Source: Pelagibius litoralis (GTDB taxonomy: Bacteria; Pseudomonadota; Alphaproteobacteria; Kiloniellales; Kiloniellaceae). Taken from it: DNA of 64,000 nucleotides. Position numbers and translations under genes: made by a program. The notes under the pieces are model-generated. The model was given only the letters and a program-made list of their open reading frames with translations. It did not search any database and had not been told where the DNA came from. Shown in pieces: positions 5,586 through 47,575 of the stretch (its first letter is position 1; each line of letters opens with the position of its first letter). The DNA lies in the NCBI RefSeq assembly GCF_011683915.1, contig NZ_JAAQPH010000010.1:124001-188000 (forward strand), written 5' to 3'.

Positions 5586-5600
5586 TCTTCCCTATCCCTA

Positions 5601-5660
5601 GATCGGATCATGTTTTGTCGGAACCACTTCGTGGTTCCGACAAAACATGTGAATCCGATC
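5601..5660. repeat. Long inverted repeat, 18-bp perfect core with 3-base loop
   Basis: Bases 5610-5627 pair perfectly with 5631-5648. Outer arms 5601-5608 and 5653-5660 also pair, with a 3-base bulge. It lies 16 bases upstream of the lacI start, transcribed away from it. The form resembles the dispersed extragenic palindromes of alphaproteobacteria. Confidence 0.75.
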
Positions 5661-5967: not shown

Positions 5968-6918
5968 ATGAAGTCTTTGATGAAGGCCGCCCTTGCGGCC
6001 GCCGCCTTGCTAGGCGCAGTTTCCACCGGCACGGCCACCACGGTATCGGCAGCAGAGGTCAAGATCATCGCCGTCGTCCACGGTCAGGCGTCGGACCCCT
6101 GGTGGTCGGTCGTGAAGAACGGCATCTCGGAAGCCGCTGAAGCCAACGGTGTCACCGTCGACTACCGGGCGCCCGAGACCTTTGACATGGTCGCCATGGC
6201 ACAGCTGATCGACGCCGCCGTGAACCAGGAACCGGACGGCATCATAGTTTCCATACCTGACGCCGACGCCCTCGGTCCGTCGATCCAAAAGGCCGTCGCC
6301 GCCGGCATTCCGGTGATCTCCATGAACTCGGGCGCCGACGTCTACGAAAAGCTGGGCGCCCTGCTGCATGTCGGTCAGGAAGAATACGCCGCCGGCCTTG
6401 CCGCCGGAAAAGCCCTGAAGGCTGCCGGGGGCACAAAGGGCCTTTGCATCAACCACGAGGTCGGCAACGTCGCCCTGGATACCCGTTGTCAGGGTTTTGC
6501 CGACGGGTTTGAAGGCCAGGTCGTCGTCCTGCCGACCACCAACGACCCCTCGGAGGTGAAAGCGAAGGTCAAAGCCTCCCTGGAATCCGACGCTGATCTG
6601 GATACCGCTTTGGGTCTCAACGCGTCTCTCGCCGGCGAGCAGATCGTCGCAGCGGTCGAGGAACTCGGCCGGGCCGGCGAAATCAAGATCGGCTCCTTCG
6701 ACCTCTCCGGCGGGTATCTGGAATCGGTGCGCGACGGCGACGCGCTCTTTGCCATCGACCAGCAGCCCTACCTGCAGGGCTTCCTGCCGGTGCAGCTTCT
6801 GGCCTTGAACGCCAAGTACGGGGTTATGCCGGCCACGGCCATCGGCTCCGGCCCGAACCTGATCACCAAGGACAAGGCCGCGCAGGTCATCGACCTGGCT
6901 TCAAAAGGTATTCGCTAG
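5968..6918 (+). CDS. Periplasmic sugar/inositol-binding protein (RbsB/Peripla_BP_4 type)
   Basis: A 316-residue secreted binding protein of the ribose/xylose/inositol importer class. Residues 1-29 are a signal peptide (basic start, hydrophobic core, cut near VSAAE). The mature part carries VVHGQASDPWW, then NQEPDGIIVSIPDADAL, PVISMNSGAD, a glycine-rich hinge and a DLSGGYLESV segment, the order seen in Peripla_BP_4 proteins. GGGGAGGAACGA precedes the ATG. No permease or ATPase follows: the next gene is convergent. The importer partners must therefore be elsewhere. The shared operator with iolD argues for inositol or a close relative as ligand. Confidence 0.88.
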   Translation: MKSLMKAALAAAALLGAVSTGTATTVSAAEVKIIAVVHGQASDPWWSVVKNGISEAAEANGVTVDYRAPETFDMVAMAQLIDAAVNQEPDGIIVSIPDADALGPSIQKAVAAGIPVISMNSGADVYEKLGALLHVGQEEYAAGLAAGKALKAAGGTKGLCINHEVGNVALDTRCQGFADGFEGQVVVLPTTNDPSEVKAKVKASLESDADLDTALGLNASLAGEQIVAAVEELGRAGEIKIGSFDLSGGYLESVRDGDALFAIDQQPYLQGFLPVQLLALNAKYGVMPATAIGSGPNLITKDKAAQVIDLASKGIR

Positions 6919-6928
6919 ACAGGGTATT

Positions 6929-6952
6929 GGGCGGCGCAGGGTTGCGCCGCCC
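6929..6952. terminator. GC hairpin between convergent genes
   Basis: GGGCGGCGCA (6929-6938) pairs perfectly with TGCGCCGCCC (6943-6952) around a 4-base loop. It sits just after the stop of the binding-protein gene (6918) and just before the 3' end of the convergent dehydrogenase gene (6958), so it can serve both. There is no U-tract. Confidence 0.65.
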
Positions 6953-6957
6953 GGCCC

Positions 6958-7992
6958 TCACACGGGCCGGATCAGAATCTTGCCGCGCTCTTTGCCGCCG
7001 GCGACGCCCAGGATGGAGCGTTCCAGGTCGTCCAGTCCCCTGACATCCATGACCAGCCGGTCGAAGGCGATGTCGCCGGCCCGCACCGCCTCGGTCAACA
7101 GCTGCACGGTTTCGCTGAATTCCTCGCGCGGATAAACGCGGCTGCCGATGAAGCTTAGTTCCTTCATGATTCCGAAGGCGACGTTGTAGCGCGCAAACCG
7201 CTCCGCCGGAAAACCGAGCGAGACGATACGGGCGCGCGGAGCCGCCGCCTCCACCGCCGCATTGATCCCGGCATCGACACCGGAGGTTTCGATGACAATG
7301 TCAAAGCCCTCGCCGCCGCTGTGGGCCGCGAGGTCCGAAAGACAGGATTCCCGCAGAGGGTCGAAGGCCGCAAATCCATGGCTCTCCGCGAAATCGCGCC
7401 GGGCCGCCACGGGTTCGGTCAGGCCGATGTCGACGGCGCCAAGGCGGCGCGCAACGATCGCGGCAAAAAGCCCGATGGGGCCGCCGCCGATGACGAGCAC
7501 GCGCTCGCCGGGGCACAGCCCGGCGCGCCGGCAGGCGTGATAGCCGACGGCAAAGGGCTCGGCCAGCGCGGCGACTTCGTCGGGCAGGTCGTCGTCCAGC
7601 GGGATCAGACGCTCGGCAGGAACGCTGACGTATTCGGCGAAAGCGCCGTCACGGTTCACGCCGATCACCACCAACTTGGCACAGACGTGCGGCTGCCCCC
7701 GCTTGCAGGCCACGCAGGCGCCGCAGGAAACCAGGGGATGGACCGCCACCCGCTGGCCCACCGCCAGGCCCGCCGCATTTTCATCCCGCAGGCCGGCGAT
7801 GGTTCCCATGAACTCATGGCCGGGGATCACCGGCGTCCTGGCAATCGGAAGATCGCCGTTGAAGATATGCACATCCGAGCCGCAGATGCCGGTCAGGCCC
7901 ACCTGAATCAGGGCTTCGCCCGCAGCCGGTTCCGGGTCGCTGACCTGGCGCACCGAAAGGCTCTTCCATTGCTCCAAGACCGCCGCCTTCAT
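6958..7992 (-). CDS. Zinc-dependent alcohol/polyol dehydrogenase (MDR family)
   Basis: A 344-residue medium-chain dehydrogenase of the sorbitol/L-threonine/L-idonate group that oxidises a secondary hydroxyl with NAD(P). Catalytic zinc ligands are visible: Cys37 in GICGSD and His59-Glu60 in PGHEF. The structural zinc site is complete (Cys90, 93, 96 and 104). The Rossmann loop reads [18 protein letters not shown] lies about 8 bases before the ATG. The gene converges with the sugar-binding protein across a shared hairpin and has no operon partner upstream except the unrelated 8056 gene. A polyol or sugar-acid substrate is likely, but I cannot name it. Confidence 0.88.
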   Translation of the reverse strand: MKAAVLEQWKSLSVRQVSDPEPAAGEALIQVGLTGICGSDVHIFNGDLPIARTPVIPGHEFMGTIAGLRDENAAGLAVGQRVAVHPLVSCGACVACKRGQPHVCAKLVVIGVNRDGAFAEYVSVPAERLIPLDDDLPDEVAALAEPFAVGYHACRRAGLCPGERVLVIGGGPIGLFAAIVARRLGAVDIGLTEPVAARRDFAESHGFAAFDPLRESCLSDLAAHSGGEGFDIVIETSGVDAGINAAVEAAAPRARIVSLGFPAERFARYNVAFGIMKELSFIGSRVYPREEFSETVQLLTEAVRAGDIAFDRLVMDVRGLDDLERSILGVAGGKERGKILIRPV

Positions 7993-8055
7993 GCCGTTGC
8001 TACCCTTCGGTTCAAAATCAAAACTCTTCCGCCGTCCACCTTAGTGGCTTCATGC

Positions 8056-8451
8056 TCATAAAACGTTCCCCTGGCCGGCGGCCTTCCGTTTCTCGTCAAT
8101 CAGCCTTCTGATCTTCTCCCAATCCTTGCTGTAGGACCGCTTCAGCGGGTTGAGCCGCCATGGCAGCCGCCAGCGCTTTCGATAGGTCTTCAATACCCGC
8201 TCTTTCACAAAGGTATCGTCCCAGCCGGCCCATTCGCCAGCCGGCGCGTAGAGATTTGCGGAAAAGGCCGGCCAGACTTCGTTGAACATGATCCGATCCA
8301 ATTCCGTTCCGGCATAGGGAGACAGCGCGCAGACCCGCGCAATATGGTCAAACCTGGAATCGTCCAACTCGGTATCGAGATAGAATCCGCTGCAGGCCAG
8401 CCAGACCGGGAGTCTGTTTTCCATGTCGTCCAACGGTTGAGAAAGCATCAT
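8056..8451 (-). CDS. DUF7079-like hypothetical protein
   Basis: A 131-residue soluble protein without signal peptide or membrane segment. The motifs RLPVWLACSGFYLDTEL, YAGTELDRIMFNEVWP and AGEWAGWDDTFVKERV match what I recall of the DUF7079 family, which is found singly in many proteobacteria and has no known function. Two nearby starts are possible: ATG at 8451 or the Met at residue 10 (MENRLPVW). It ends 63 bases upstream of the zinc dehydrogenase, in the same direction; a functional link is not evident. Confidence 0.65.
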   Translation of the reverse strand: MMLSQPLDDMENRLPVWLACSGFYLDTELDDSRFDHIARVCALSPYAGTELDRIMFNEVWPAFSANLYAPAGEWAGWDDTFVKERVLKTYRKRWRLPWRLNPLKRSYSKDWEKIRRLIDEKRKAAGQGNVL

Positions 8452-8930
8452 CCGTTCGCCCGTATCATGCAGTCAACGGCCGCAAAACAGTTTGAATTCC
8501 ACGATCGAATGATATCCGAATGGGGAAGACTGCAAAACGGCAGAATCGTTCACTGTGGCCTCTGGCATGACCCTTGGCGAACGGCGAAATCGAACGGCAG
8601 GATGCGCCGCTTGTCGAGGTGTAAGCAATCTTATCCAGGCTAAAGAACACGTCACGACTGTGGTTACTCGGAATCATCCGTCTCGACGAAGCAGAGCCGC
8701 GGCGCTAGGCTCAAAGAAACGGGGGATAACAAACACTCGTCCCTCCCGGTGAAGAGCATCGAAGCGATGCACCTGACCATAGCGCGCGCAGGCTGCCTAG
8801 TTTGTAGCCTGTTTCGGGAGCGCGTACGCGGTCGAAGGCCTCTGAATCAGCGGTCTTTGGCTGCTGGCACAGGAATTGCGGTTTGCGCCGGGATGGGTTC
8901 GCTCAACGAGAACGGGGAGATATCAGAGGC
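8452..8930. other. Long gene-free leader upstream of the ABC importer
   Basis: About 480 bases with no convincing gene on either strand. The part next to the importer has several small stems: CAGGCT/AGCCTG around a 12-base loop near 8789-8812, and a 10-bp self-complementary CGCGTACGCG near 8823-8832. Open frames here have poor codon use and no ribosome site. I looked for thiamine and guanidine riboswitch landmarks and did not find them. Confidence 0.4.
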
Positions 8931-9965
8931 ATGTTTAAGTTCAAGATCCTGCGCAGCGCCGCGCTTGCAGCCGTCCTTTCACTGGCGGTCACCCAGGCCC
9001 CCAATAGCGCCTGGGCCGAGGTGGACATCAAATTCACGCTGGATTGGAAGTTCCAGGGCCCGACGGCGGCCTTCCTGGTCGCCGCCGACAAGGGTTTCTA
9101 TGCCGAAGAAGGCCTGGACGTCTCAATCGACAGCGGCAACGGCTCGGCCGGCGCCGTCACCCGGGTCGCCGGTGGCGCCTACCAGATGGGTTTTGCCGAT
9201 ATCAACGCACTGGTCGACTTCAACGCCCAGAACCCCGGCCAATCGGTGAAAGCCGTCATGATGGCCTACGACGCGCCGCCCTTCTCGCTGTTCACCCTGA
9301 AGAAGAACAACATCAAAACCGCCGAAGACCTGGTCGGCCGCAAGCTCGGCGCGCCGGTTTTCGATGCCTCCTACAAGCTGTTCCCCGCCTTTGCCCATGA
9401 AACCGGCATCGACGAGGCAGCGGTGGAGCGGGTTAACATGGACCCGGCGCTGCGCGAAACCATGCTGGTGCAGGGCCAGGTCGACTTCATTTCCGGCCAC
9501 TACTTTTCTTCCATGCTGGACCTGAAGTCCAAAGGCGTGGCGGAGGAGGATATCCAGTTTTTTCTCTACGCCGACTTCGGCATGGATTTCTATGGCAACG
9601 CGGTGATCGCTTCGGGCGATTTCATCAAGGAGAACCCAGAGGCCATTGCCGGGTTCATCCGCGCCACCGTGCGCGGCTGGAAAGACATCATCGCCGATCC
9701 TGAGGGTGCCATCACCATCGTTGCCAAGAGCGATCCCCTGATCGACAAGGGGCTGGAGCTGGAGCGGCTGCAACTCGCCCTCGACGTCAACGTCTTGACC
9801 GACCATGTAAAGGCGAACGGCATCGGCGACGTCGATGAGGCCCGGCTGCGCAGTTCCATCGCCCAGCTTGCGATCGCCTATGGCCTGACGTCGACGCCCG
9901 AACCGGCTGATGTCTGGACCTCGGCTTTTCTGCCCGTGGCGCAGGACCGTATGCTGACGCCCTGA
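8931..9965 (+). CDS. NitT/TauT-type ABC importer, periplasmic binding protein (NMT1/THI5-like)
   Basis: A 344-residue secreted binding protein for a small organic anion, sulfonate, nitrogen compound or pyrimidine. A signal peptide covers about residues 1-26 (cut after SAWA). The mature start FTLDWKFQGPTAAFLVAADKGFYAEEGLDVSI carries the family's conserved domain, followed by GGAYQMGFADINAL. The frame is open from 8883, but the ATG at 8931 is followed directly by the signal peptide and preceded by GGGGAG and AGAGG, so it is the better start. ATPase and permease follow, giving a complete importer. The ligand cannot be read; no biosynthetic or catabolic enzyme sits with it. Confidence 0.88.
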   Translation: MFKFKILRSAALAAVLSLAVTQAPNSAWAEVDIKFTLDWKFQGPTAAFLVAADKGFYAEEGLDVSIDSGNGSAGAVTRVAGGAYQMGFADINALVDFNAQNPGQSVKAVMMAYDAPPFSLFTLKKNNIKTAEDLVGRKLGAPVFDASYKLFPAFAHETGIDEAAVERVNMDPALRETMLVQGQVDFISGHYFSSMLDLKSKGVAEEDIQFFLYADFGMDFYGNAVIASGDFIKENPEAIAGFIRATVRGWKDIIADPEGAITIVAKSDPLIDKGLELERLQLALDVNVLTDHVKANGIGDVDEARLRSSIAQLAIAYGLTSTPEPADVWTSAFLPVAQDRMLTP

Positions 9966-10019
9966 ACCCGGCCCCCGCACCAAAAAACAAGCAAAAAGCA
10001 AGAGAGTACCGATTCAAAC

Positions 10020-10808
10020 GTGACCAGCTTTGTTGAGCTCGACCGGGTTACCATGACCTATGGCGGCGCCGGCAACGGAACGCCTGCGGTCGCCGAGGCG
10101 TCGTTGAAGATCGATCGCGGCGAGTTCGTCGCCATGGTCGGGCCCTCCGGCTGCGGGAAGTCCTCCATTCTGAAGATCGTCTCGGGATTGATGCCCATCG
10201 ATTCCGGCGCCGCCCGGGTCGACGGCCAGGCCGTTAACGGGCCGCTGACCATGGTCGGCATGGCCTTCCAGAACGCAACCCTGCTGCCCTGGCGAACGAC
10301 CCTGGAGAATGTCCTGCTGCCGCTCGAGGTCAGCAAGACCCACCGTCGCTCCTTCCGGCGCAAGAAGGCCGCGCACATTGCCGCCGCCCACGATCTGCTG
10401 AAAATCGTCGGGCTGGAAGGTTATGAGGGTCATGCCCCGCACGAGCTTTCCGGCGGCATGCAGCAACGTGCTTCGCTCTGCCGGGCGCTGATCCATGCCC
10501 CCGACCTCCTCCTGCTCGACGAACCCTTTGCGGCCCTGGACGCTTTCACCCGCGAAGAACTCTGGGGTGTTCTGCAGGAACTCTGGATGCGCAAGAAGTT
10601 CACGGTCGTCCTGGTCACCCACGACCTGCGCGAGGCCGTCTATCTCGCCGACCGTGTCTACGTCGTGAGCAAGCGGCCGGGACGCATTGTCTATGAGCGT
10701 CCGATCGCTTTGCCACGTCCGCGCACGTTGGAGTCCACCTTCGACGGGAATTTCGTCGACCTGGTACACGGGCTGCGCGACCATATCGGCGAGGTGCGGG
10801 CCGCATGA
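10020..10808 (+). CDS. NitT/TauT-type ABC importer, ATPase subunit
   Basis: A 262-residue cytoplasmic ABC ATPase of the SsuB/TauB class. Walker A is GPSGCGKSS (about 41-49), the Q-loop is AFQNATLLPW, the signature is LSGGMQQR, Walker B is LLLLDEPFAALD, and the switch His is in LVTHDLREAV. The start is GTG at 10020, 54 bases after the binding-protein stop, with only a weak ribosome site. Its stop overlaps the permease start as ATGA (10805-10808), so the two are translationally coupled and assemble at the inner membrane. Confidence 0.92.
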   Translation: MTSFVELDRVTMTYGGAGNGTPAVAEASLKIDRGEFVAMVGPSGCGKSSILKIVSGLMPIDSGAARVDGQAVNGPLTMVGMAFQNATLLPWRTTLENVLLPLEVSKTHRRSFRRKKAAHIAAAHDLLKIVGLEGYEGHAPHELSGGMQQRASLCRALIHAPDLLLLDEPFAALDAFTREELWGVLQELWMRKKFTVVLVTHDLREAVYLADRVYVVSKRPGRIVYERPIALPRPRTLESTFDGNFVDLVHGLRDHIGEVRAA

Positions 10809-11566
10809 TCTCCGCCATCAAGCTCGCGCCCTGGCTGGCCACCATCGGCCTTTTTGTAATCTGGGAACTGGCCTGCCGAGCCTTTGCCATCCCCGAGTTT
10901 ATCCTGCCGGCGCCGAGCCAGGCCATAGCGGCGCTGATCGAGTATTGGCCGGCGATCTGGCAGAACGCTTTCTATACTTTCTGGGTCACGCTTTTCGGCT
11001 TCGGCCTGGCCGTCGTCTTCGGCCTGGCGCTGGGGCTCGTCACCGGCGCTTCCGCCCTGGTCTATGCGGCGGTCTATCCGATGCTGGTGGGCTTCAACAG
11101 CATCCCCAAGGTGGCGATCGTGCCCGTGCTGGTGGTCTGGTTCGGCATCGGAACGGTCCCCGCCGTGCTGACCGCCTTTACGATTTCCTTCTTTCCCATC
11201 GTGGTGAACGTTGCCACCGGGCTCGCGACCCTGGAGCCGGAGCTGAGGGACGTTCTGCGCTCTCTGGGCGCGCGTAAGATCGATATCCTGCTGAAGGTCG
11301 GCCTGCCCCGCTCGATGCCCTACTTCTTTGCCTCTCTCAAGGTGGCGGTCACCCTTGCCTTTGTCGGCACCGTCATCTCCGAGACCGTGGCCGGCAATGC
11401 CGGGATGGGTCATCTCATGCTGACCGCCTCCTCCAGCTTCCGGGTGCCGCTGGTCTTCGCCGGGCTTCTCGTCATCGCGGCAATGGGGGTCGGCATGTAT
11501 GCGATCTTCGCGGTCATCGAACGGCGCTTCGTGGGCTGGGCCTTTCGTGGCGGCGAGGGCGTCTAA
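10805..11566 (+). CDS. NitT/TauT-type ABC importer, permease subunit
   Basis: A 253-residue inner-membrane permease of the BPD_transp_1 (SsuC/TauC) class with about six hydrophobic helices. The coupling EAA-type loop is LEPELRDVLRSLGARKIDILLKVGLPRSMPY, and the ETVAGNAGMGHLM segment follows. The ATG overlaps the ATPase stop by four bases. It is the last gene of the importer; a 10-bp hairpin lies 49 bases downstream. Confidence 0.92.
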   Translation: MISAIKLAPWLATIGLFVIWELACRAFAIPEFILPAPSQAIAALIEYWPAIWQNAFYTFWVTLFGFGLAVVFGLALGLVTGASALVYAAVYPMLVGFNSIPKVAIVPVLVVWFGIGTVPAVLTAFTISFFPIVVNVATGLATLEPELRDVLRSLGARKIDILLKVGLPRSMPYFFASLKVAVTLAFVGTVISETVAGNAGMGHLMLTASSSFRVPLVFAGLLVIAAMGVGMYAIFAVIERRFVGWAFRGGEGV

Positions 11567-11614
11567 AAGCCGGTCAGACTTGTCGGGTTCGACAGTCTCG
11601 AGTCGTCGGCAAGC

Positions 11615-11648
11615 CGCTACGCCCAAGGTGTTATCCCGGGGCGTAGCG
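11615..11648. terminator. Hairpin after the ABC importer, shared with a convergent gene
   Basis: CGCTACGCCC (11615-11624) pairs with GGGCGTAGCG (11639-11648) around a 14-base loop. It lies between the end of the permease gene (11566) and the end of the convergent small membrane-protein gene (11673). There is no U-tract. Confidence 0.55.
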
Positions 11649-11672
11649 CTAGCTTAGGTTAGGATCTGCCTG

Positions 11673-12023
11673 CTAGAACTGGGCGGCCAACTCTGCCATG
11701 CAGGCGCTCGCTACCGAGCGATCCGGATCGCTTGAACCCGGCATGGTCGCCCAGCCGGCCTTCATGAGCATGTCGCTGCGCTTATAGCTGCTGGCTTCCT
11801 TTAGCAGGGCCATTGTCTCAACGACCTGCGGATCCTGTTGGGAATTCTGGACGCAGATCGGCACCAAGGCCGCAACGACCTGGAGCTTCGCCTGATCCGA
11901 GGCCATGCGATCGGCGGTACCGCCGGTCACCCATCCGCCCCATGAGAAGCCGACAATCGCCAGCGCGACCGCCCCGACCGCTGCACCATAAATTCCGGGT
12001 TTCAGCCATTCTGGAACATTCAT
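11673..12023 (-). CDS. Small single-helix membrane protein, unknown function
   Basis: 116 residues. After a short amphipathic start (MNVPEWLKPGIYG) there is one strong membrane helix at about 12-33 (AAVGAVALAIVGFSWGGWVTGG). A soluble domain with two Cys, at VPICVQN and VASACM, follows; these could pair outside the cytoplasm. I recall similar unnamed proteins in many Alphaproteobacteria but no function. GGAAAC stands before the ATG, and the gene is followed by the hairpin at 11615-11648. The upstream gap is strongly AT-rich. Confidence 0.7.
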   Translation of the reverse strand: MNVPEWLKPGIYGAAVGAVALAIVGFSWGGWVTGGTADRMASDQAKLQVVAALVPICVQNSQQDPQVVETMALLKEASSYKRSDMLMKAGWATMPGSSDPDRSVASACMAELAAQF

Positions 12024-12210
12024 GTGTGTTTCCTTTATTTAGGGAAACCCATTTTCCCTGTATTCCTCTCAGCATAGCGAAGCACACAGAAATAACACGT
12101 GCATTATTTATAAATATTTTTTCTGGAATTTTATTCTGCTTATATTACCTGATTATCTGCTTTTATTCTCATCTCTCAGAAAAATATTTACATTCCGGTC
12201 AAAAGGTTAG
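12024..12210. other. AT-rich intergenic stretch
   Basis: About 190 bases between two minus-strand genes. The part 12090-12170 is very AT-rich compared with the flanking coding DNA and contains no gene-like frame. It is probably the promoter region of the 11673 gene, although no clear -35/-10 pair stands out. Confidence 0.4.
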
Positions 12211-12474
12211 CTAAAAATCGGCCGCTGACAGAAGGCAAACTCCGTCGCGCGTTCTCGCATAAACCTTGCGGGCGGTGTCATAGATCCGGTCGCGCGCGGC
12301 ATCGAATGCCTCCAGGTACACGGCTTCCAGGTCGCCGGCCAGGGGATCGGGCTTGCTGAGGGCATTCACCTCCACAAGGAACGAAACCTCCAAAGCACTG
12401 TCATATCCCCAAAAACGGATGACGTTTCTTCTCGCGTCATAGCTTCGGCTCTCGTTTGGAAAATTCAGCGTCAT
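12211..12474 (-). CDS. DUF1488 family protein
   Basis: 87 residues. The chain FPNESRSYDARRNVIRFWGYDSALEVSF and the C-terminal EAFDAARDRIYDTARKVYARTRDGVCLLSAADF match the small DUF1488 family found across Proteobacteria and often present in several copies; function unknown. The frame is open from 12552, but the Met at 12474 (MTLNFPNES) starts exactly where family members begin and has AGGA upstream. It is one of a run of small minus-strand genes. Confidence 0.8.
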   Translation of the reverse strand: MTLNFPNESRSYDARRNVIRFWGYDSALEVSFLVEVNALSKPDPLAGDLEAVYLEAFDAARDRIYDTARKVYARTRDGVCLLSAADF

Positions 12475-12596
12475 GATCGGATGTCCTGCGGAATGGGATC
12501 GAATACGACACACCTGTGTCTCAGACAGGTCGCCGGCCATGCGACGCAACATTGACTAATCGGGCCCACAAAGCCGGCCTGCAGGGATTCACCTGC

Positions 12597-12779
12597 TCAA
12601 GGGTATCGACGGTACGGCATGCCTCCCGTCTTCTTGGCCAGCCGTGTCCCTCTCGGCATTTTCGGGGCCGCCTGCTTTGCACCGCATTTCGGACAGTTCG
12701 CATCCTTTTTTCCCAGATCATAGTACTTGCAAGCACAATCCGGGCAGGCGTGCTTTCGCCCACGGTCTAGCCTATTCAT
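12597..12779 (-). CDS. Small zinc-ribbon protein (CPDCACKYYDLGKKDANCPKCG)
   Basis: 60 residues. Two CxxC pairs (CPDC and CPKC) spaced for one zinc ribbon flank a YYDLGKK segment that recalls the FYDLN-type proteins of Alphaproteobacteria (TIGR02300). That family is longer and acid-rich, whereas this one has a basic tail. The ATG at 12779 is preceded by AAGGAG with 10-base spacing, which fixes the start. A role in nucleic-acid or protein binding is only a guess from the fold. Confidence 0.7.
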   Translation of the reverse strand: MNRLDRGRKHACPDCACKYYDLGKKDANCPKCGAKQAAPKMPRGTRLAKKTGGMPYRRYP

Positions 12780-12893
12780 GTTAGTCGGCTCCTTACTTCT
12801 CTCTGACAGCTTAATCGTCTGGCGACGGGTATCGGCACGGTAAGGCACCGACCTGATCCTCGCCCTGTCGGACACAACCTCCGAACTGAGAGT

Positions 12894-13106
12894 CTAGCGC
12901 CTGCTGACGGATGGACTGGACCTTGACGGCACACCACTCCGCCACGCATTCGTACTCTTACAGCGGGAACAGATCCGCTCGCCGGACCAAGTGCTTGAAA
13001 ATGAACTCTTGCACCTGAGACATTGACGAACCTTGGGGGCGTCCTCGGGGGGAACATCCTCGGGCAGCCGAATGCGGGGTGTATCCGATGCCGGGGCGTA
13101 GGTCAT
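12894..13106 (-). CDS. Small zinc-ribbon-like protein
   Basis: 70 residues. CLRCKSSF and CSRCKSTN form a CxxC-x(n)-CxxC knuckle, followed by a Ser/Arg-rich tail (WRSGVPSRSSPSVSRR). I recall similar orphan proteins in Alphaproteobacteria, of unknown function. The ATG overlaps the stop of the 13103 gene as ATGA, so it is translated by coupling with that gene. The two probably act together. Confidence 0.7.
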   Translation of the reverse strand: MTYAPASDTPRIRLPEDVPPEDAPKVRQCLRCKSSFSSTWSGERICSRCKSTNAWRSGVPSRSSPSVSRR

Positions 13107-13414
13107 GGGTCCTCCTTCGCACGCTCGCAGAGCCGGTTAAGATCGTCGAGCGCATGGTCGATGAGCGCCTTGCGACGCGGGTCCTGGGCCTCCGGCGTGC
13201 CGGCAAAGATCCGAATGAGGTACTGCGCCTTGGCTGCCGCCTCGGGCCAGGTCTCCGCCGGCGCGGCCAGAAGAAGTTTCTCGAGTTCTTCCTGACGCTG
13301 CCGCAGCGCAGTCTGGTCGGCGTGGAAATCATGCAGCCGCTGTCGGCGCGTCTCCGTCGCCTTTTGGGCGGCCATGCCGCGATGTTCGTCGAGGTCGACC
13401 GGATCGTCGTTCAT
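13103..13414 (-). CDS. Hypothetical helical protein coupled to a zinc-ribbon gene
   Basis: 103 residues, rich in Ala, Glu, Arg and Gln and predicted largely helical; a coiled coil is likely around RQRLHDFHADQTALRQRQEELEKLL. The segment TWPEAAAKAQYLIRIFAGTPEAQDPRRKALIDHALDDLNRL is a recurring pattern in small alphaproteobacterial proteins that I cannot name. The frame is open from 13552, but the ATG at 13414 has AGGAGG upstream and avoids overlap with the 13530 gene. Its stop overlaps the next start by ATGA. Confidence 0.65.
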   Translation of the reverse strand: MNDDPVDLDEHRGMAAQKATETRRQRLHDFHADQTALRQRQEELEKLLLAAPAETWPEAAAKAQYLIRIFAGTPEAQDPRRKALIDHALDDLNRLCERAKEDP

Positions 13415-13529
13415 CGTGTCCCAATCCCTCCTCTTCCAATTCTCACGCACACTTCCTTCACCGGGAGCCGCTCCGGGGTCCATAACGACCCGATCGGCCG
13501 CGCGGAGCGGCCTTGAATAGATGCGGGCG

Positions 13530-14114
13530 TCAAGGCAGAAAGCATCTGTCACCTTTCTTGCGATAAGGCCGATCGCAATCCCAATCGGCGCCGGAATAGT
13601 CGAGATGAGCGTTTTCCGGCACCCTCACGGCGATGCAAGCTTCCTCAACCGCCCGATGCCCGCGCTCGCAGGTCCAACCCGATCCGAAGGTCGACTCCGT
13701 CAGGTATCCGTTCGCCGGAACCTTGATGGCCACGCAGGCCGAGTCAGCCTCGCGGTAGCCCCGTTCGCACTGCCACCAGTCGCCGGAGGAATTCAGGAAG
13801 GCATTGCGCGGTACTGCGATTGCGGTACAGCGCTTATCGACCTCCTGATAGCCTCGGCGGCATTCCCAACCCTGTCCGTAAGACGTGTCGGTCGCATAGG
13901 CATTCGCGGGCAGCCTGACGGCCACGCAGGCGCCACCGACCTCCCGGTAACCTCGATCGCAGACCCATCCATTGCCATAGCTCTTGGCACTGGCATGAGC
14001 TGGTATCCCGGCAGCACTGCTCTGCGCAGAGACAGCACCGGGGACGGCCGCCAGCAGCACCGAAAGAATCAAGGAACGGATGGTCAAAACGGGCAATGGC
14101 CGCAGTCTGGGCAT
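13530..14114 (-). CDS. Secreted protein with five Cys-rich tandem repeats
   Basis: 194 residues. A signal peptide covers about 1-30 (cut near VSAQS). The mature part is four full units and one partial unit of about 33-38 residues, each of the form GWxCxRGYREVxxxCxAVxVPxNAYL. Every unit has two Cys about 13 residues apart, which suggests one disulfide per unit and a beads-on-a-string shape in the periplasm or outside the cell. Such repeats occur in other secreted bacterial proteins without known function. The start at 14114 is the only one that keeps the signal peptide intact. Confidence 0.8.
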   Translation of the reverse strand: MPRLRPLPVLTIRSLILSVLLAAVPGAVSAQSSAAGIPAHASAKSYGNGWVCDRGYREVGGACVAVRLPANAYATDTSYGQGWECRRGYQEVDKRCTAIAVPRNAFLNSSGDWWQCERGYREADSACVAIKVPANGYLTESTFGSGWTCERGHRAVEEACIAVRVPENAHLDYSGADWDCDRPYRKKGDRCFLP

Positions 14115-14286
14115 GCATCTTTTCCTTCTGACAGGGCCCTTTCACCGGCTCCTGTGGAGTACGCCGGCTGACCAACGTCACCCCTACCAACGTCGCCGGT
14201 GAGCCTATCCGTAGAGTTGCAATCCATTCGAACCGAACGGCAACGGCGGAGGGCGCGTGCCCTTTCGACCGCCGGCGGCACGAAGG

Positions 14287-14433
14287 TTAGGACTTAGAGG
14301 CCGGCGCAGCCGCTGCAGATGGCTTCTCGGGCTCTCCCGCAGGGCGCTTGGCCGCCGGCGCGTTTTGCGCCTTGGCGTCAGGGCCGAGTTTGTTCGGCGA
14401 GTCTTGTGCGGTGGAAAAATCCTTAAAGGACAT
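14287..14433 (-). CDS. 48-residue MSFKDF-type small protein
   Basis: A short frame: MSFKDFSTAQDSPNKLG, then an Ala/Pro/Lys/Glu-rich disordered tail ending in ASKS. The MSFKDFS start followed by a low-complexity Ala/Lys/Pro tail recurs in short alphaproteobacterial proteins that I recall as unnamed. AAAGGC lies about 10 bases before the ATG. Codon use (GCC, GCG, AAG, CCC) fits the genome. It is followed by a strongly AT-rich upstream region that could carry its promoter. Function unknown. Confidence 0.6.
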   Translation of the reverse strand: MSFKDFSTAQDSPNKLGPDAKAQNAPAAKRPAGEPEKPSAAAAPASKS

Positions 14434-14730
14434 TTGCAATGCCTTTCATCAAGGCGGCAATGATTTGCCACATCCCAATATATAGTTATCGCAAGGAAAT
14501 TTACAATAGTTATTAAAGAAATATCTTATTATTACTCTATTCTTTGATAAAAACATGTTTTCACAGTGAATATAAATAAATAAATCGAGCAATATTATAT
14601 GAATGATTATTTATTGTATAATTTGAGAATGCGTCTTGTCTGCAAATGAAGTCTCAAGGCAGCACATGCAAAGGCAGCCTCGGCCCAATTCTCCCGCTAA
14701 AAGTGGGGCGATCGAACTGCAGGCCGAACA
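14434..14730. other. AT-rich gap between two minus-strand genes
   Basis: About 300 bases with no gene that I can support. Bases 14475-14640 are mostly A and T, with runs such as TATATAGTTATC and TATAATTTG, in sharp contrast to the GC-rich surroundings. It could be a strong or silenced promoter region, or an imported remnant; no repeat ends or tRNA are visible. Confidence 0.45.
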
Positions 14731-15450
14731 TCAGCGCGATTGCGTCGTGGCCTCGCAAATACTGTTCAGTGGACAGTTGCCGCAACACGGGAGCCCGTGG
14801 CTGCAGATCTGCTGACCCAGAACTTTCATGAGTTGGTGGTGAACGTCCATGTCCTCGGCACCCCACGCCGCCGGGAGATAGGGCAGGATGCGATCATAGG
14901 CCTCGCGCGCGTCGGCTCGCCGGCCGGCGAGCCCCAGACGCCGCAGAACACGCAGATGATGGGTGTCGATCACCAGGGCCTTCATCCGCAGGGTACTGAG
15001 ATTCAGCGTTGCCGCCGCCGTCTTCCGGCCGACACCGGGCAGACGCTCCAGCCAGGCGAGCGCCTGATCCACACGCCAGTACTGAAGAAAATCGAGCGTC
15101 AAGGCGCCGCGCGCCTCGGTGATCATCCGAAGGGATGCCTTGATCCGCCCGGCTTTCACATCGGCAAAGGTTACCGCCGCTATCGTCTCATAAAGCGAGG
15201 CCTCCGGCGCATCGCGAACCTGCTCCCACGACGCGAAACGGTCCGCCAAGGCCTCGAAGGCCCCCAGCGAGACGGCCCCATAGGTGCGGCCGCCGACCAA
15301 GCCAAGCACCAACTGGCTCATCGGGTCGAGCAGCCGCCAGGGGCCCGGCCGGCCAAACCGCAGCCTTAGCCGTCGATGGATCTCCTCAAGAACCCGGTGC
15401 CGCCCGTCTATATCGAGGGCAAGTTGCATCGCCGGACAAATGTCGCGCAA
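14731..15450 (-). CDS. Endonuclease III-like HhH-GPD DNA glycosylase
   Basis: 239 residues. The helix-hairpin-helix LPGVGRKTAAATL carries Lys143, the Nth-type catalytic lysine. VIDTHHLRV holds Asp162, the conserved acid. The C-terminus has a complete iron-sulfur motif, Cys216-x6-Cys223-x2-Cys226-x5-Cys232. Together these predict a bifunctional glycosylase/AP-lyase that removes oxidised pyrimidines. It is distinct from housekeeping Nth in its longer N-terminus and THH in place of THV, so it is probably a second paralogue. It stands alone; the neighbours give no context. Confidence 0.85.
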   Translation of the reverse strand: MRDICPAMQLALDIDGRHRVLEEIHRRLRLRFGRPGPWRLLDPMSQLVLGLVGGRTYGAVSLGAFEALADRFASWEQVRDAPEASLYETIAAVTFADVKAGRIKASLRMITEARGALTLDFLQYWRVDQALAWLERLPGVGRKTAAATLNLSTLRMKALVIDTHHLRVLRRLGLAGRRADAREAYDRILPYLPAAWGAEDMDVHHQLMKVLGQQICSHGLPCCGNCPLNSICEATTQSR

Positions 15451-15535
15451 GCATCAGAACAAATCAAGAACATTGATTCAACCCGGGGCGCGACGCCAAG
15501 TCACCGGTCGTTACAACAGACGACCGCTGGAATAC

Positions 15536-15796
15536 TCAGATTGCGTGCACGACCTGGCGACCCTCGCCTGCGGTCCGCATTGCCTCCAGCAGGCGCTGGA
15601 TCGCCTCCAATTCGTCTTTAATCGTCAACTTGCGACGCTTGAGCCGGCGCAACGTCGCCGTATCCGGCAGCGGCCGCTTCAATTCCGTCTCCAGCTTTTC
15701 TTCCAGGCTTCGATGGGTCAGCAACAAGGCCCGGAAACGGCTGGCAACACCTGAACCGGGATAGGTCTTCCTGCGCGGGCTCACACCTTGTGGCAT
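15536..15796 (-). CDS. YdcH/DUF465 family small protein
   Basis: 86 residues. The helical core RALLLTHRSLEEKLETELKRPLPDTATLRRLKRRKLTIKDEL is typical of DUF465, a short coiled-coil hairpin protein of unknown function. The frame opens at 15814, but the Met at 15796 (MPQGVSPRRK) has GAGGAG about 10 bases before it. A second member lies at 53692. A 18-bp hairpin separates it from the catabolic operon that ends upstream. Confidence 0.8.
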   Translation of the reverse strand: MPQGVSPRRKTYPGSGVASRFRALLLTHRSLEEKLETELKRPLPDTATLRRLKRRKLTIKDELEAIQRLLEAMRTAGEGRQVVHAI

Positions 15797-15880
15797 TGTG
15801 TCTGATCTCCTCATCTGCCGACGGTAACAATCGTATGGCAGACAGTTGGGGGCATCCCAAAACGCGATCCAATCACCGAT

Positions 15881-15921
15881 GGGATGGATTTTGATAGAAA
15901 ACCTCTATCAAAATCCATCCC
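15881..15921. terminator. Perfect 18-bp hairpin at the end of the TRAP/isomerase operon
   Basis: Bases 15881-15898 are the exact inverted complement of 15904-15921, with a 5-base loop. It lies 39 bases after the stop of the last gene of the minus-strand operon (15960) and upstream of the ydcH-type gene, so it most likely ends the operon transcript. There is no long U-tract. Confidence 0.75.
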
Positions 15922-15959
15922 TGTTAACGGCAACCAGATAAGGCCAACACTGGCCGACC

Positions 15960-17048
15960 CTAGAGAGTGACGGGCCGGCCTTCGGCAATCGACTGCTCGG
16001 CGGCAGCGCCCATTGCGACGGCTTTCAGCCCATCCTCCAGGGTCACCTCCACCGGGCCATTGCCGAGCGCCGCCTCGCGAAACCGCAGATGCTGGAAGTA
16101 GGTCGATCCGTGATGATCGCCGGCCCGCAGCAGGGCTGGATCGACCGGCACGGCTTTGCGCTGCGGGTCAGCCGGGTCGCGCGGCGAGATTTCGATCATG
16201 GCCTCGCGTTCCGCACCGCCGCGCAGGCGCAGCGGACCGGGGATCGAGCAGGCAACGCGGCCCTGCTCACCCGTCGCCGTGATCTCCTCCTGAAACCAGG
16301 CACCCTCGGCAAACATGCAGAGCTCCAGCATCGCCCGGGCGCCCCCGGCAAAGTCGACCACGGCATAGGCATTGTCGAGGATGTCGGGCCGGCGCCCATT
16401 GTATAGCTCGTCCCGATGGTTCACATCCGCCCCACCTGAGGCAAAAACGCGAACCGGTTCGTCCTGCAGGACAAGGCGCATGAGGTCGAAGAAGTGACAG
16501 CACTTCTCGACCATGGTGCCGCCGGTATTGGCGTTGAAGCGGTTCCAGTCGCCGACCTTTTCAAGGAAGGGGTAACGGTGCTCGCGGATCGTCAACATAC
16601 GCAGGCGTCCGGCAGTACCGCCGCGCAGTTCCTCCAACAGCGCGGCCACCGGCGGCATGTAGCGGTACTCCATCGCGACCCAGAGAGGCGCCGGCCAGGT
16701 CGCCGCAAGCGCCGCCAGTTGCCGGCCCTGCGCCGGATCGATCACCACCGGCTTTTCCACCAGCAAAGGGCGCGGTCGCCCCGCGAAAACCCGCTGCAGC
16801 ACATCAAAGTGCGTGTGATTGGGACTGACCACGACGATCGCATCGATATCGTTGCGGGCAACCAGCGCATCGGCATCGCCCAGCAGCGCCGCGCCAGGTG
16901 CTGCCTGGGCATTCAGCGCCTGCTGGACCGGATCGGGATCGGCAATCGCTGTCACCGCCGAGCCGGGAATCAACGCCAGATTGGCGATATGCTCGCGCGC
17001 CATCATGCCGCCGCCGATGAGGCCGTAGCGCAGAGTCTCTGTCGTCAT
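15960..17048 (-). CDS. Gfo/Idh/MocA family oxidoreductase of the TRAP/isomerase operon
   Basis: NAD(P)-dependent sugar or sugar-derivative dehydrogenase, 362 residues. It has the GLIGGGMMAREH nucleotide loop (9-20), VSPNHTH, the VEKP motif with Lys99, YRYMPPVAALLEEL, and MVEKCCHFFDLMR with the His used for substrate in the family. The frame is open further upstream, but the ATG at 17048 overlaps the isomerase stop as ATGA and starts the Rossmann fold at residue 7. It is the last of nine genes in the operon. It could reduce or oxidise the transported sugar before isomerisation; direction and substrate are unknown. Confidence 0.87.
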   Translation of the reverse strand: MTTETLRYGLIGGGMMAREHIANLALIPGSAVTAIADPDPVQQALNAQAAPGAALLGDADALVARNDIDAIVVVSPNHTHFDVLQRVFAGRPRPLLVEKPVVIDPAQGRQLAALAATWPAPLWVAMEYRYMPPVAALLEELRGGTAGRLRMLTIREHRYPFLEKVGDWNRFNANTGGTMVEKCCHFFDLMRLVLQDEPVRVFASGGADVNHRDELYNGRRPDILDNAYAVVDFAGGARAMLELCMFAEGAWFQEEITATGEQGRVACSIPGPLRLRGGAEREAMIEISPRDPADPQRKAVPVDPALLRAGDHHGSTYFQHLRFREAALGNGPVEVTLEDGLKAVAMGAAAEQSIAEGRPVTL

Positions 17049-18409
17049 CGCGCTTCGTCGAGATCGAGCAGCGGCAGTGCGGCGGCGGCGGCGGCCGCTT
17101 CCACCCCCGCCTTCACGTCGCCGTAAACGACCGAGACGTGGTGTTCGAGCTGACCGTCGATCAGGGCCCGCCGCGCCGCCCCTGCCCCGCAATCGAAGCG
17201 GATCACGCCGGAAGTGCCGGTGAAGGACATCGGCCGGCGCAGGATTTCCCCGCGGCCGACGACCATCTTCAGCTCGGCGCGGGACTGGCTGATCCGCGCC
17301 ACCGTCACCCGGCCGGGCTTCAGCGGAAACTCGTGCAGCAGGGGCATCTGACGGTTGGTATGGATGGTCGCGCGCGGCGCAAATTCCGGGTCGCAGAAAT
17401 CGAGCGGCGCAAGGCCGCAGTGCCAGAGCACGGCGCTGTCGTCAGCCGCATCGAAGTCGACGACATCGGTCAGCATCGCCGGGCTGTCGGCTAGGTCCTG
17501 CAACAGGTGGGAACCCACGGTGCCCAGCATGTCGGCCTCGCAGGACGCCGGAATGCGCTCGCCGTTCAAGGTCGCCATGGCGCCGCAGACCGCGCAGCCG
17601 TAGTCGGTGAAGGTTTCGGGCCAGCAGCGCACGGCAAAACCATCGAGTTTTTGGCTGTCGGCCATATCGCGCAGCGCCGTGTAGCAGCGCAGCGAGCGTT
17701 CGACCTGCTCGGCATCCAATGTCGCCACACCCTCAAGACGTTCGGCCGCCTCGGCCTGCAGCCTGCCGATACGTTGGCTGTCCGCTGCCTTGGCCGCGCC
17801 GAAGAGAGTTGTCAGATCGATACGCTCCACATCGACCCCGAAGCGCGTCTTCAACTCCGCTTCGTCGAAGGCGCAGGTATCGAAACCGGCGGGATGCTCG
17901 CCCACCAGGCCGACACGGCAGGCAAAAGACCGCGCCGCGCCCGGCCTTGCCGGCCGGCTGGCCGGCGCGGCGTCTTCCGACGCGAAAAGCGCGGCAAGAT
18001 CCGGCGGTGTCGTGGCCGGCGCGTGCAGCCATCCGCAGCGCCGGTCGATCTTGCCCAGGGCGTGGGCGGCCAGGCTGAGGCCGCAGAAGGAATTCAGCCT
18101 TAGGCGGCCACCGTCGCGCGGTTCCGGAAAAGCCCAGATGGCAAGGGGCGCCGCCAGAGTCTTGCCGATCGCCGCCGTCATCGCGGCATCACAGAAGGTC
18201 GCCTGGATAATGAGCGTGCCATCCAGTTGCTGGGTGGCCAGGGTCGCCAGCCGCTCTTCGACCATCGCCGCATCCATCAGCAGCGTCGCGTCACCCAGAA
18301 CGTCGGCGCCGCTGACCCTGAGCGAGGCAACGGCCGCCTCGGCAGTCTGCGCCGCCAGTTCGACGTCGAAGGTCGGGCGCGCCAGGCAGAAAACCGCGAT
18401 GCGCATCAT
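17045..18409 (-). CDS. L-fucose/L-arabinose isomerase family protein
   Basis: A 454-residue protein with the build of the fucose-isomerase superfamily: two N-terminal alpha/beta domains (MRIAVFCLARPTFD; LDGTLIIQATFCD) and a C-terminal domain with CEADMLGT (Glu291), TDVVDFD (Asp315/318) and WHCGLAPL (His330). These are the places where the family binds its metal. True FucI and AraA are longer or have other spacing, so the substrate is open; aldose-ketose isomerisation is expected. The start overlaps the aldolase stop (ATGATG at 18409), and its own stop overlaps the Gfo/Idh start. With a kinase and an aldolase next to it, isomerase to kinase to aldolase is a complete glycolysis-like core. Confidence 0.8.
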   Translation of the reverse strand: MMRIAVFCLARPTFDVELAAQTAEAAVASLRVSGADVLGDATLLMDAAMVEERLATLATQQLDGTLIIQATFCDAAMTAAIGKTLAAPLAIWAFPEPRDGGRLRLNSFCGLSLAAHALGKIDRRCGWLHAPATTPPDLAALFASEDAAPASRPARPGAARSFACRVGLVGEHPAGFDTCAFDEAELKTRFGVDVERIDLTTLFGAAKAADSQRIGRLQAEAAERLEGVATLDAEQVERSLRCYTALRDMADSQKLDGFAVRCWPETFTDYGCAVCGAMATLNGERIPASCEADMLGTVGSHLLQDLADSPAMLTDVVDFDAADDSAVLWHCGLAPLDFCDPEFAPRATIHTNRQMPLLHEFPLKPGRVTVARISQSRAELKMVVGRGEILRRPMSFTGTSGVIRFDCGAGAARRALIDGQLEHHVSVVYGDVKAGVEAAAAAAALPLLDLDEAR

Positions 18410-19434
18410 AGCCTGCCTTCCAGGTCGGGGTAGTCGCCCTGCATCCATTCGCTGTCCCAGCCCTCGGGCCGCGCATCATCGAACCAGTTGGTCCAGGGCT
18501 GCGCCTTGGCATCCGCAAAGGCATTCAACTCGGCCATATAGGCGGCGGCGGGCCCCTGCAGTTCGGCGGCCATGCGGTCCATATCCGGGAAATGCTGGAA
18601 GGCGTCCCACCAGATCGCCCGGCCGGCCAGGAAGCCGCTCGCCCCTGCCTCAAAGGCATAGTGCAGCACATTGCGGAAGGCCGCCTGGGTGGCGCCCGCC
18701 GAGAGCATCACCCAGGGCCGTCCGGCAAGGCGCCCCATCTCCTCAAAGAGCGCCGCGGTCTCGCGGTCGCCCGGTGGCGGCACTTCCTTTGCCGGGATCG
18801 GGCTTTCCAGCTTGAAGACATCGACGCCATAGTCCGGCGCCGCCATCACCTCGACCGTCTTCAGCACATGATCGGCGCGTTTGCCGGCCTGCTCCACATA
18901 GTCCTTGGTCTGCCCGGCATCGCCGGCCAGGGGGTAGAGCAGCATCTCCAGCAGAAAGGCGATGTCGTAGCGCGCGCAGGCCTCGCCCACCCGCTTGGTG
19001 AAGTCCAGCTGCGCCTGGCGCGAGGCCGCGTCCTGTTCCGGATGATACCAGGTCAACACTTTTACCGAGTCTGCGCCGGCACGCTTGATCTTGGAGACCG
19101 ACCAATCATCGATTCCCTTCGACAGCCGCCCGTCCGCGCCTTCGCCAAAGACTGAGTCTTCCAGCGTCACCACAAGACCATGGTGGGGCAAGAGCAGCGA
19201 CATCGCATCGCAGAGCGCATAGGTCGGATCGGCCAGCACGGCAGAAGCCTGAGGCGCCAGGGCCTCCATCAAGGCCCGCTTCACCGCACGCACATCGCCA
19301 TAGCGGGATTGATCTTCGCCCCGCGCCGCCGCCGTTTTTGTCTTGATCGGCGGGCGCTGGTCTACGGCCAGCATCTTGAACCGGCCAGCCTCGTCGGCCA
19401 TGCGTCTGAAGCCCCAGAACTTGCCGGGCGTCAT
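18406..19434 (-). CDS. LacD/YihT-like class I sugar-phosphate aldolase
   Basis: A 342-residue TIM-barrel aldolase related to tagatose-1,6-bisphosphate aldolase LacD and sulfofructose-1-phosphate aldolase YihT. It begins GKFWGFRRMADEAGRFKMLAVDQRPP, as in LacD. Lys208 in DVFKLESPIP is at the position of the Schiff-base lysine, and Lys125 lies in VKVLTWY. PWVMLSAGATQAAF and GFLAGRAIWW provide the phosphate-binding loops. It would cleave a ketose 1-phosphate or bisphosphate to DHAP and an aldehyde, or a sulfo-aldehyde. ATG overlaps the kinase stop as ATGA. The specificity for sulfonate or plain sugar cannot be settled from the sequence alone. Confidence 0.83.
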   Translation of the reverse strand: MTPGKFWGFRRMADEAGRFKMLAVDQRPPIKTKTAAARGEDQSRYGDVRAVKRALMEALAPQASAVLADPTYALCDAMSLLLPHHGLVVTLEDSVFGEGADGRLSKGIDDWSVSKIKRAGADSVKVLTWYHPEQDAASRQAQLDFTKRVGEACARYDIAFLLEMLLYPLAGDAGQTKDYVEQAGKRADHVLKTVEVMAAPDYGVDVFKLESPIPAKEVPPPGDRETAALFEEMGRLAGRPWVMLSAGATQAAFRNVLHYAFEAGASGFLAGRAIWWDAFQHFPDMDRMAAELQGPAAAYMAELNAFADAKAQPWTNWFDDARPEGWDSEWMQGDYPDLEGRL

Positions 19435-47320: not shown

Positions 47321-47369
47321 TCTTGTCCTCCCAGTTTCTTTCTTGCGATGAACATTCGCAGCTGAACTA

Positions 47370-47398
47370 TCTGTAACGTTACAGTTCATTCCGGTCAA
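47370..47398 (-). promoter_or_regulatory. Importer promoter with LacI operator (47371-47384)
   Basis: On the minus strand TTGACC (47398-47393), a 17-base spacer and TACAGA (47375-47370) form the promoter of the binding-protein operon. CTGTAACGTTACAG (47371-47384), a perfect 14-bp palindrome, covers the -10 and half the spacer, as expected for a repressor site. Confidence 0.7.
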
Positions 47399-47502
47399 CT
47401 CTCGCTTGCGGGAACCAAATACGTCACATATTAAATAATTGTTTTTGTTATATATTTTAGATCATACTTCTTCATAATCTCCCTCGGGTCCGATGATCTC
47501 TA

Positions 47503-47530
47503 TTGTGATCTGTAACGATACAGGTATATT
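47503..47530 (+). promoter_or_regulatory. lacI promoter with operator filling the spacer (47510-47523)
   Basis: TTGTGA (47503-47508), a 16-base spacer and TATATT (47525-47530) form the promoter of the lacI gene at 47576. CTGTAACGATACAG (47510-47523) differs from the 47371 site at one base and lies wholly inside the spacer. This predicts autorepression by the same protein. The site centres are 139 bp apart. Confidence 0.7.
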
Positions 47531-47575
47531 CGACGAAATCTCGATGGGACCACCTGAGGGCGGCGTTGGACGATT

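Follow-up and report, generated by a model that had tools for sequence, protein, structure and literature searches.

A run of seven small minus-strand genes, designated A to G and transcribed in the order G-F-E-D-C-B-A, lies at positions 11673-14433 of a 64,000-nucleotide stretch of the Pelagibius litoralis genome (contig NZ_JAAQPH010000010.1, positions 124,001 to 188,000; hereafter the window, in which all positions are given unless another locus is named). We consider it probable that these genes are a horizontally exchanged accessory module of a modular alphaproteobacterial stress-survival island. Horizontal exchange is argued for by an empty site in a genome of the same genus and by copies on plasmids, and the company that relatives of these genes keep with known stress genes suggests the role. 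An initial annotation, made from the DNA alone, had suggested a stress or envelope module of Alphaproteobacteria; this holds as an association, relatives being found beside stress genes, and makes such a function putative.

An empty site in a related genome

In genome G006, which belongs to the same genus, the genes p17045, oxidoreductase, I, H, permease, ATPase and binding protein occur in window order, with glycosylase gene H directly abutting the permease gene. In the window, the seven-gene module lies between these two, flanked by H (14731-15450, minus strand, encoding an HhH-GPD DNA glycosylase) and by the ABC-transporter permease gene (10805-11566, plus strand), both outside the module. 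Identity between the window and G006 is 95.6% for the permease, 92.0% for the ATPase and 91.2% for the binding protein. Blastn aligns window positions 8896-11558 and 14755-19000 to positions 6337-8972 and 8975-13230 of G006 (reverse complement of locus L204), and the two G006-aligned blocks meet 2 bases apart, leaving 3,196 bases (11559-14754) as extra sequence in the window. The 86%-complete G006 assembly gave no match to A, E, F or G. Because the flanks are adjacent in G006 and the block is missing there, the 3,196-bp block is probably an insertion, with H marking the insertion site.

Three other members of the genus (G003, G004 and G007) carry A, C, D and E, and F in two cases, at another site that is common to all three and adjoins a cold-shock gene. 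The module of the window is 70-73% identical to those of two other families, as against 65-67% to those of its own genus. An outside donor was sought by phylogeny and is not proposed here, as a tree of A, C, D and E together does not resolve the donor. The H frame encodes 239 residues in the window as compared to 307 in G006 (L204, 4332-5255), where it continues into the antisense strand of the permease gene; the insertion probably changed the 3' end of H.

Conservation of the gene set

Among 58 relatives, this genome included, E is found in 14, F in 17 and A in 22 (some of the F and A matches being weak), and G in five. Scanning GTDB species genomes yielded 12 loci with E, the nearest of which carry the GenBank names Kiloniellaceae, Kiloniellales or Rhodospirillales. 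At these 12 loci, as read by tblastn, D adjoins E in 10 and A is nearby in nine, with C in seven and as a fragment in one more, B in six, F in five and as one further fragment, and a clear G in five. Six additional loci from the same family (L033-L038) all possess D and C, five possess A, five possess F and two possess G; B, which is present in module loci L020-L025 of six genomes, occurs in none of them. Segments of the G-F-E-D-C-B-A order reappear in other alphaproteobacterial families and orders. In an even draw of 385 genomes of the class, E occurs in 15, A in 46 and both in eight (Fisher 7.8e-5), and in a draw of 398 genomes from the phylum 16 match E, 14 of them from the same class and the other two by weak, partial matches.

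The coupling of E to D is a recurrent feature of these loci. The two genes share an ATGA at 13103-13106, the link that the initial annotation had reported, and the overlap is kept in 18 of the 19 loci read 3' of E, as ATGA in 16, GTGA in L104 and TGATG in L037, being absent only in L102. Of the 19 copies of D, 17 are intact and keep all four cysteines; the copy in L098 is truncated and that in L102 has degenerated. An ATGA overlap also joins F to E in G003 and G007 (the start context of L033 and L035). At L100 (16756-16945) and L104 (12306-12500), a D gene overlapping E is missing from the plasmid gene tables, which are incomplete, and may be a missed gene.

The seven genes are thus not a chance grouping. 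That unrelated small genes merely came to lie side by side would account for gaps of mostly about 110-190 bases, unlike those of a tight operon, for the shortness of all seven proteins and for an order that is broken in some loci; yet the genes keep company across families and orders, the empty site spans the whole block, and the E-D overlap and the leaders described below are conserved, so that coincidence is very improbable. The initial annotation had allowed for such a coincidence, in which neighbours would not be conserved; they are conserved across families.

Several loci show variations on the gene set. In L021, L023 and L024, G and E are separated by an extra small gene (TVTF...PAGxY), whose relatives also adjoin A on plasmids; the plasmid PAGxY proteins match no Pfam family. 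In L176 and L183 a G-like microprotein with its leader is followed by a TVTF...PAGxY gene, forming a two-gene unit away from the main module. L026 contains a seemingly decayed first copy (5230-5640 and 8011-8292), consisting of a 20-residue G frame with leader and the N-terminal 28 residues of E and followed downstream by a DUF1611/alanine-racemase pair and by an intact E; this looks like duplication and decay of module parts.

Plasmid copies and their neighbours

Relatives of A, F, E and D reside on plasmids, some of them conjugative. In 72,556 plasmid records, A has 113 matches (28 over at least 80% of the query), F has 28 (26) and E seven (7). Thirteen hand-picked plasmid regions, with incomplete gene tables, were read, and the annotated products include Crp/Fnr in eight, transglutaminase in seven, hflK in six, groEL in four, fatty-acid desaturase in four and nhaA in three; 10 of the 13 possess at least one of Crp/Fnr, groEL, hflK, nhaA, desaturase or cold-shock genes. 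For a held-out comparison, 20 regions were taken by hand from matches to E or A in genomes of the class (19 and 53 rows, respectively), and 13 of these genomes also supplied 20 control regions. The held-out set was reduced to 18, because L133 appears to be the L101 plasmid (same length, identical genes) and L127 and L128 form one region. Strict stress markers were groEL/ES, cold-shock, Crp/Fnr, hflKC, nhaA and desaturase genes, and the wider list added transglutaminase, the DUF1611/racemase pair and glucan synthase. Any marker was found in 11 of the 18 regions and in none of the 20 controls (Fisher 2.6e-5), and a strict stress marker in seven of the 18, again as compared to none of the controls (Fisher 0.0025).

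These data also bear on the possibility that the genes are maintenance baggage of plasmids and islands, serving mobile elements in entry, stability or defence, with stress genes merely co-collected in the same accessory regions. Several regions do have conjugation or mobilization genes close to the plasmid copies, some have abortive-infection or toxin genes there, and the distribution of the module is patchy; against this, a phage collection contained no match to E, the sole query used, and the partners seen in the held-out regions are stress genes, though the marker list held no transfer genes. Overall, the baggage explanation is unlikely.

The preferred reading, an exchanged module of a stress-survival island, has its own difficulties, and the following observations weigh against it. 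A precise loss of the block from the 86%-complete G006 is possible, insertion being the simpler of the two readings, and no terminal repeats were seen. The tree of A, C, D and E, with support values of 56, 37 and 41, weakly groups the window copy with its own genus. The marker list was fixed before the held-out regions were read, having been drawn up from plasmid loci already known. Three of the 13 plasmid regions (L102, L107 and L109) contain no strict stress marker, seven of the 18 held-out loci have A or E without any marker, and the window itself holds no island marker besides A to G themselves. L027, L029 and L030 depart from the gene order, the window is the only locus read with all seven genes intact, and of the eight genomes of the class draw that carry both A and E, only three (G000, G122 and G412) have them on the same contig no more than about 10 kb apart.

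Two further features of the plasmid and related loci concern possible partners of the module. Proteins of the DUF1611 and alanine/ornithine racemase families lie near A or E in L026, L101, L103, L109, L132, L139, L141, L144 and L145, which include Rhodobacterales plasmids, and a D-amino-acid or cell-wall function is possibly tied to the module. L103, from Ruegeria conchae (NZ_CP081104), has two island copies arranged face to face, each with Crp/Fnr, A and PAGxY proteins.

AT-rich leaders of A and G

The initial annotation drew attention to two gaps (12090-12170 and 14475-14640) as far more AT-rich than the rest, and a base-composition scan places them in the lowest-GC regions of the window, 12014-12242 (minimum GC fraction 0.23) and 14411-14690 (minimum 0.18), against a 100-base mean of 0.634 (standard deviation 0.062). 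Its further suggestion that they are signs of transfer is not borne out, because relatives have such gaps before A and G too, as conserved leaders. The last 100 bases upstream of A have a GC fraction of 0.13-0.36 in 14 of 15 loci, the exception being L142 (0.59), and the last 130 bases upstream of G have 0.25-0.33 in seven of seven. Some distant A genes possess no AT-rich leader (0.41, 0.51, 0.51 and 0.53 in L087, L088, L096 and L122, from a further set of A leaders in which 13 of 28 loci were dropped, their A gene not being detected on the strand specified). In the window the leader of A spans 12024-12210 (minus strand, GC 0.33) and that of G 14434-14730 (minus strand, GC 0.36, minimum 0.18), the latter including 24 bases adjoining H that match G006.

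Each leader contains a candidate hairpin. That of A (AGGGAAA-ATGGG-TTTCCCT, 12041-12059, minus strand) is directly upstream of the ribosome-binding site, and in an alignment of 12 rows picked by eye for having the stem it is flanked by a -10-like TATA stretch and the ribosome-binding site, with 95.9% of cells paired as compared to 43-80% when the partner strand is slid. It is absent from the leaders of L082, L084, L086, L087, L088, L096, L121 (the same as L129), L122 and L123 (the same as L132). The covariation score of the A hairpin was reached by six of 500 shuffles. The element upstream of G (GTGGCAA-ATCA-TTGCCGC, 14454-14471, minus strand) pairs in 87.5% of cells versus 20-67% slid, and its score was reached by 33 of 500 shuffles. 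Pairs changed on both sides number two for A and three for G, values that slid versions can equal, as one slid version does for G. Given the shuffle and slid-strand results, the stems are described as candidate hairpins and are not claimed as RNA structures; that of G could equally be a dyad serving as a DNA operator.

The best evidence that leader and microprotein G form one unit comes from a model, R2, built from eight G leaders, which found three held-out sites, in L026 (E-value 1.9e-4), G003:C2 (0.005) and G018:C23 (0.008). The L026 site lies before a truncated 20-residue MPFKEW frame, the G003 site before a 47-residue MVSKFSSAQ frame and the G018 site before a 51-residue MSFNKY frame. A genome-wide regulon was considered for R2 and for the A model, R1, and discarded: in five genomes R1 matches only A and R2 only G-like genes, the extras being a reverse-strand echo of the same hairpin for R1 and one weak match at an E-value of 1.89.

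AT-rich DNA is the kind of target that MucR or another AT-binding silencer would cover, and silencing of the leaders is possible because the genome holds one MucR, a single ROS_MUCR gene (G000:C27, 173.3 bits). Elsewhere in the window, a low-GC gap at 47354-47547 contains two CTGTAACGwTACAG palindromes and lies beside genes that we take to encode a sugar-binding protein (46052-47398, minus strand) and a LacI-type regulator (47576-48685, plus strand); it probably represents an ordinary regulator with its operators.

Coding evidence and features of the seven proteins

The seven open reading frames were confirmed as initially annotated. The ratios of nonsynonymous to synonymous substitution rates (dN/dS, by NG86, between the window copy and relatives, with three pairs of saturated dS left out) are 0.08-0.22 for A, 0.11-0.18 for B, 0.14-0.41 for C, 0.08-0.18 for E, 0.14-0.17 for F and 0.24-0.36 for G, ratios that are only rough since dS is often above 1. 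The closest pair of G genes (L021 and L023) differs by too few changes to judge (pN 0.036, pS 0.029). The six genes compared in this way, A, B, C, E, F and G, are real and under purifying selection. Rfam and tRNA scans of the window gave no matches, a sigma-70 scan gave four promoter-like sites where 1.3 are expected, and a terminator scan returned a count no higher than chance. Downstream of A, a 10-bp perfect inverted repeat (11615-11648) folds into a terminator-like stem that has no T run.

Among the seven proteins only B and C match Pfam above cut-off, and none exceeds an NCBIfam model cut-off (E was scanned with its last 96 residues, the first seven being omitted). B (12211-12474, minus strand, 87 residues, start taken as the ATG at 12474) is a DUF1488 protein, as had been proposed, with 55.1 bits to PF07369 against a gathering score of 22 (E-value 7.7e-15); a phmmer match of DUF1488 to multicystatin (E-value 6.5e-6) was not relied on. 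C (12597-12779, minus strand, 60 residues) corresponds to the N-terminal part of the FYDLN_acid zinc ribbon, matching PF09538 with 43 bits against 23.9 (E-value 7.8e-11) over positions 1-45 of 105 only, and it falls below the TIGR02300 cut-off (29.8 versus 41.65). D (12894-13106, minus strand, 70 residues) bears a zinc-ribbon motif, CxxC-x13-CxxC (CLRC-x13-CxRC; cysteines 29, 32, 46 and 49), and no family exceeds cut-off. E (13103-13414, minus strand, 103 residues, beginning MNDDPVDLDEH) likewise matches no family, nor does a full-length plasmid relative scanned in the same way; from its sequence it is probably helical or coiled-coil.

A (11673-12023, minus strand, 116 residues) has a single N-terminal hydrophobic stretch, a putative helix with the motif GFxWGGWxTGG, and the alignment places conserved cysteines beyond it, C57 and C108 being invariant; it has no Pfam or NCBIfam family. 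Its predicted structure was poor (pLDDT 57.6) and was not used, and a PDB profile match (E-value 0.74) was too weak to use. F (13530-14114, minus strand, 194 residues) has a signal-peptide-like start followed by cysteine-rich repeats (WxCxRGY...C), the number of which differs among orthologs, and its predicted structure (pLDDT 83, pTM 0.54) is a row of small two-cysteine beta units. Foldseek gave no match to this structure at an E-value of 0.001 or below (best 3.2e-3), and in VIA the best Z was 3.7 (70 residues, root-mean-square deviation 4.9), with cysteine-rich domains of Eph and TNF receptors at Z 2-4. Kinship with these receptor domains is not proposed, such Z values being taken as a common arrangement only, and a PDB profile match of F to MSP-1 (E-value 0.0066) was too weak to use.

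G (14287-14433, minus strand) is a 48-residue microprotein beginning MSFKDF, and the same length is found in seven of the eight loci whose start was read, the window included; L022 has no in-frame ATG at the expected start. Roseobacter plasmids possess MSFKDL frames of 41, 44 and 45 residues (L101, L103 and L099, with L133 repeating L101), as compared to one unrelated MSFRSL frame across 20 control regions.

A possible mode of action

If the module acts as its anatomy suggests, transcription would begin in the two AT-rich leaders, before G and before A, which may be kept quiet in normal growth by MucR or another AT-binding silencer and become accessible under stress, perhaps through the Crp/Fnr regulator where an island has one. 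The envelope would be the main site of action of the products. F may be an exported, disulfide-rich repeat rod serving as a spacer or as a surface for binding, either in the periplasm or outside the cell, and A may be anchored in the membrane and bear a two-cysteine domain. E and D would constitute a translationally coupled helical/zinc-ribbon pair, made together and probably binding each other, with C providing a further small zinc site and G being a presumably disordered microprotein. Protection of membrane and periplasm would be the joint effect, supplementing the chaperones and HflKC that fuller islands provide. The roles of F, A and the E-D pair, like the regulatory scheme, we infer from protein and leader anatomy.

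A broader reading can be put forward tentatively, at a little under even chances: that these genes belong to a class-wide, plasmid-exchanged stress-survival system of Alphaproteobacteria, built of familyless parts (F, A, E-D and a 40-60-residue MSFKD microprotein, G, with its own leader) that dock onto interchangeable partners, namely GroEL, HflKC, NhaA, desaturase, Crp/Fnr, transglutaminase and glucan synthase, and that here travel alone.

Relationship to known systems

In the open-access literature, as covered by titles and abstract openings and with subscription journals mostly outside that coverage, nothing was found on this gene set. The sole experimental hint found for any of the seven families comes from the low-oxygen-activated (lxa) locus of Burkholderia cenocepacia, where the DUF1488 protein BCAM0277 is numbered between universal stress and heat-shock proteins and rises along with the stress proteins of the locus, 6.3-fold from an early to a late isolate of one patient and 3.5-fold from isolate B1 to B3 of another (PMC6127331). 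In lxa, the DUF1488 gene lies among stress genes and close to a BON-domain gene, and in Rhizobium sp. Kim5 a BON gene comes after F and DUF1488. However, lxa is a 50-gene cluster with several universal stress proteins (PMC6127331), and the window, although its gene B encodes a DUF1488 protein, contains none of the marker proteins.

This resemblance raises the alternative of a low-oxygen or dormancy module akin to lxa and driven by Crp/Fnr (FixK-like) regulators. The shared DUF1488 family, which rises with lxa, and the Crp/Fnr genes of the plasmid regions are consistent with such a module, whereas the window holds no relative of the plasmid Crp/Fnr protein, no universal stress protein is named in the annotated plasmid regions, and no FNR-type dyad was seen in the leaders by eye, with no motif scan behind that inspection. 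A low-oxygen module is quite improbable.

Two of the proteins resemble known families in part. C matches the first 45 positions of the FYDLN_acid Pfam model, and differs from FYDLN_acid and TIGR02300 proteins in having 60 residues as compared to models of 105 and 129 positions. F, predicted as a row of two-cysteine beta units, may recall EGF-like and TNF-receptor repeats; its matches are weak and are taken as a common arrangement.

A close parallel to the module as an exchanged part of a stress-survival island is the tLST (LHR), which confers tolerance of heat, pressure or chlorine. It is a mobile accessory island that bundles protein-quality control, envelope and ion-antiport functions (PMC8290217). 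The fuller plasmid islands considered here similarly bundle GroEL, HflKC, NhaA and envelope proteins, and the mobile accessory character of the tLST is shared by the module, as seen from the empty site and the plasmid copies of A, E and F. The two differ in that A to G match no Hsp20 or Clp family, the core of the tLST being dna-hsp20-clpG(K), and in belonging to another bacterial class with other small proteins. The tLST core, YfdX, HdeD, KefB and DegP are not named in the 13 plasmid regions, whose tables are incomplete and were not supplemented by a direct search for clpG or hsp20. By analogy, the module may best be regarded as working like the tLST without being the tLST. If so, at least five small-protein families without assignment would gain a testable setting, and Alphaproteobacteria, from marine Roseobacters to the hosts of rhizobial plasmids, would trade a stress-survival module of their own that parallels the tLST of Beta- and Gammaproteobacteria.

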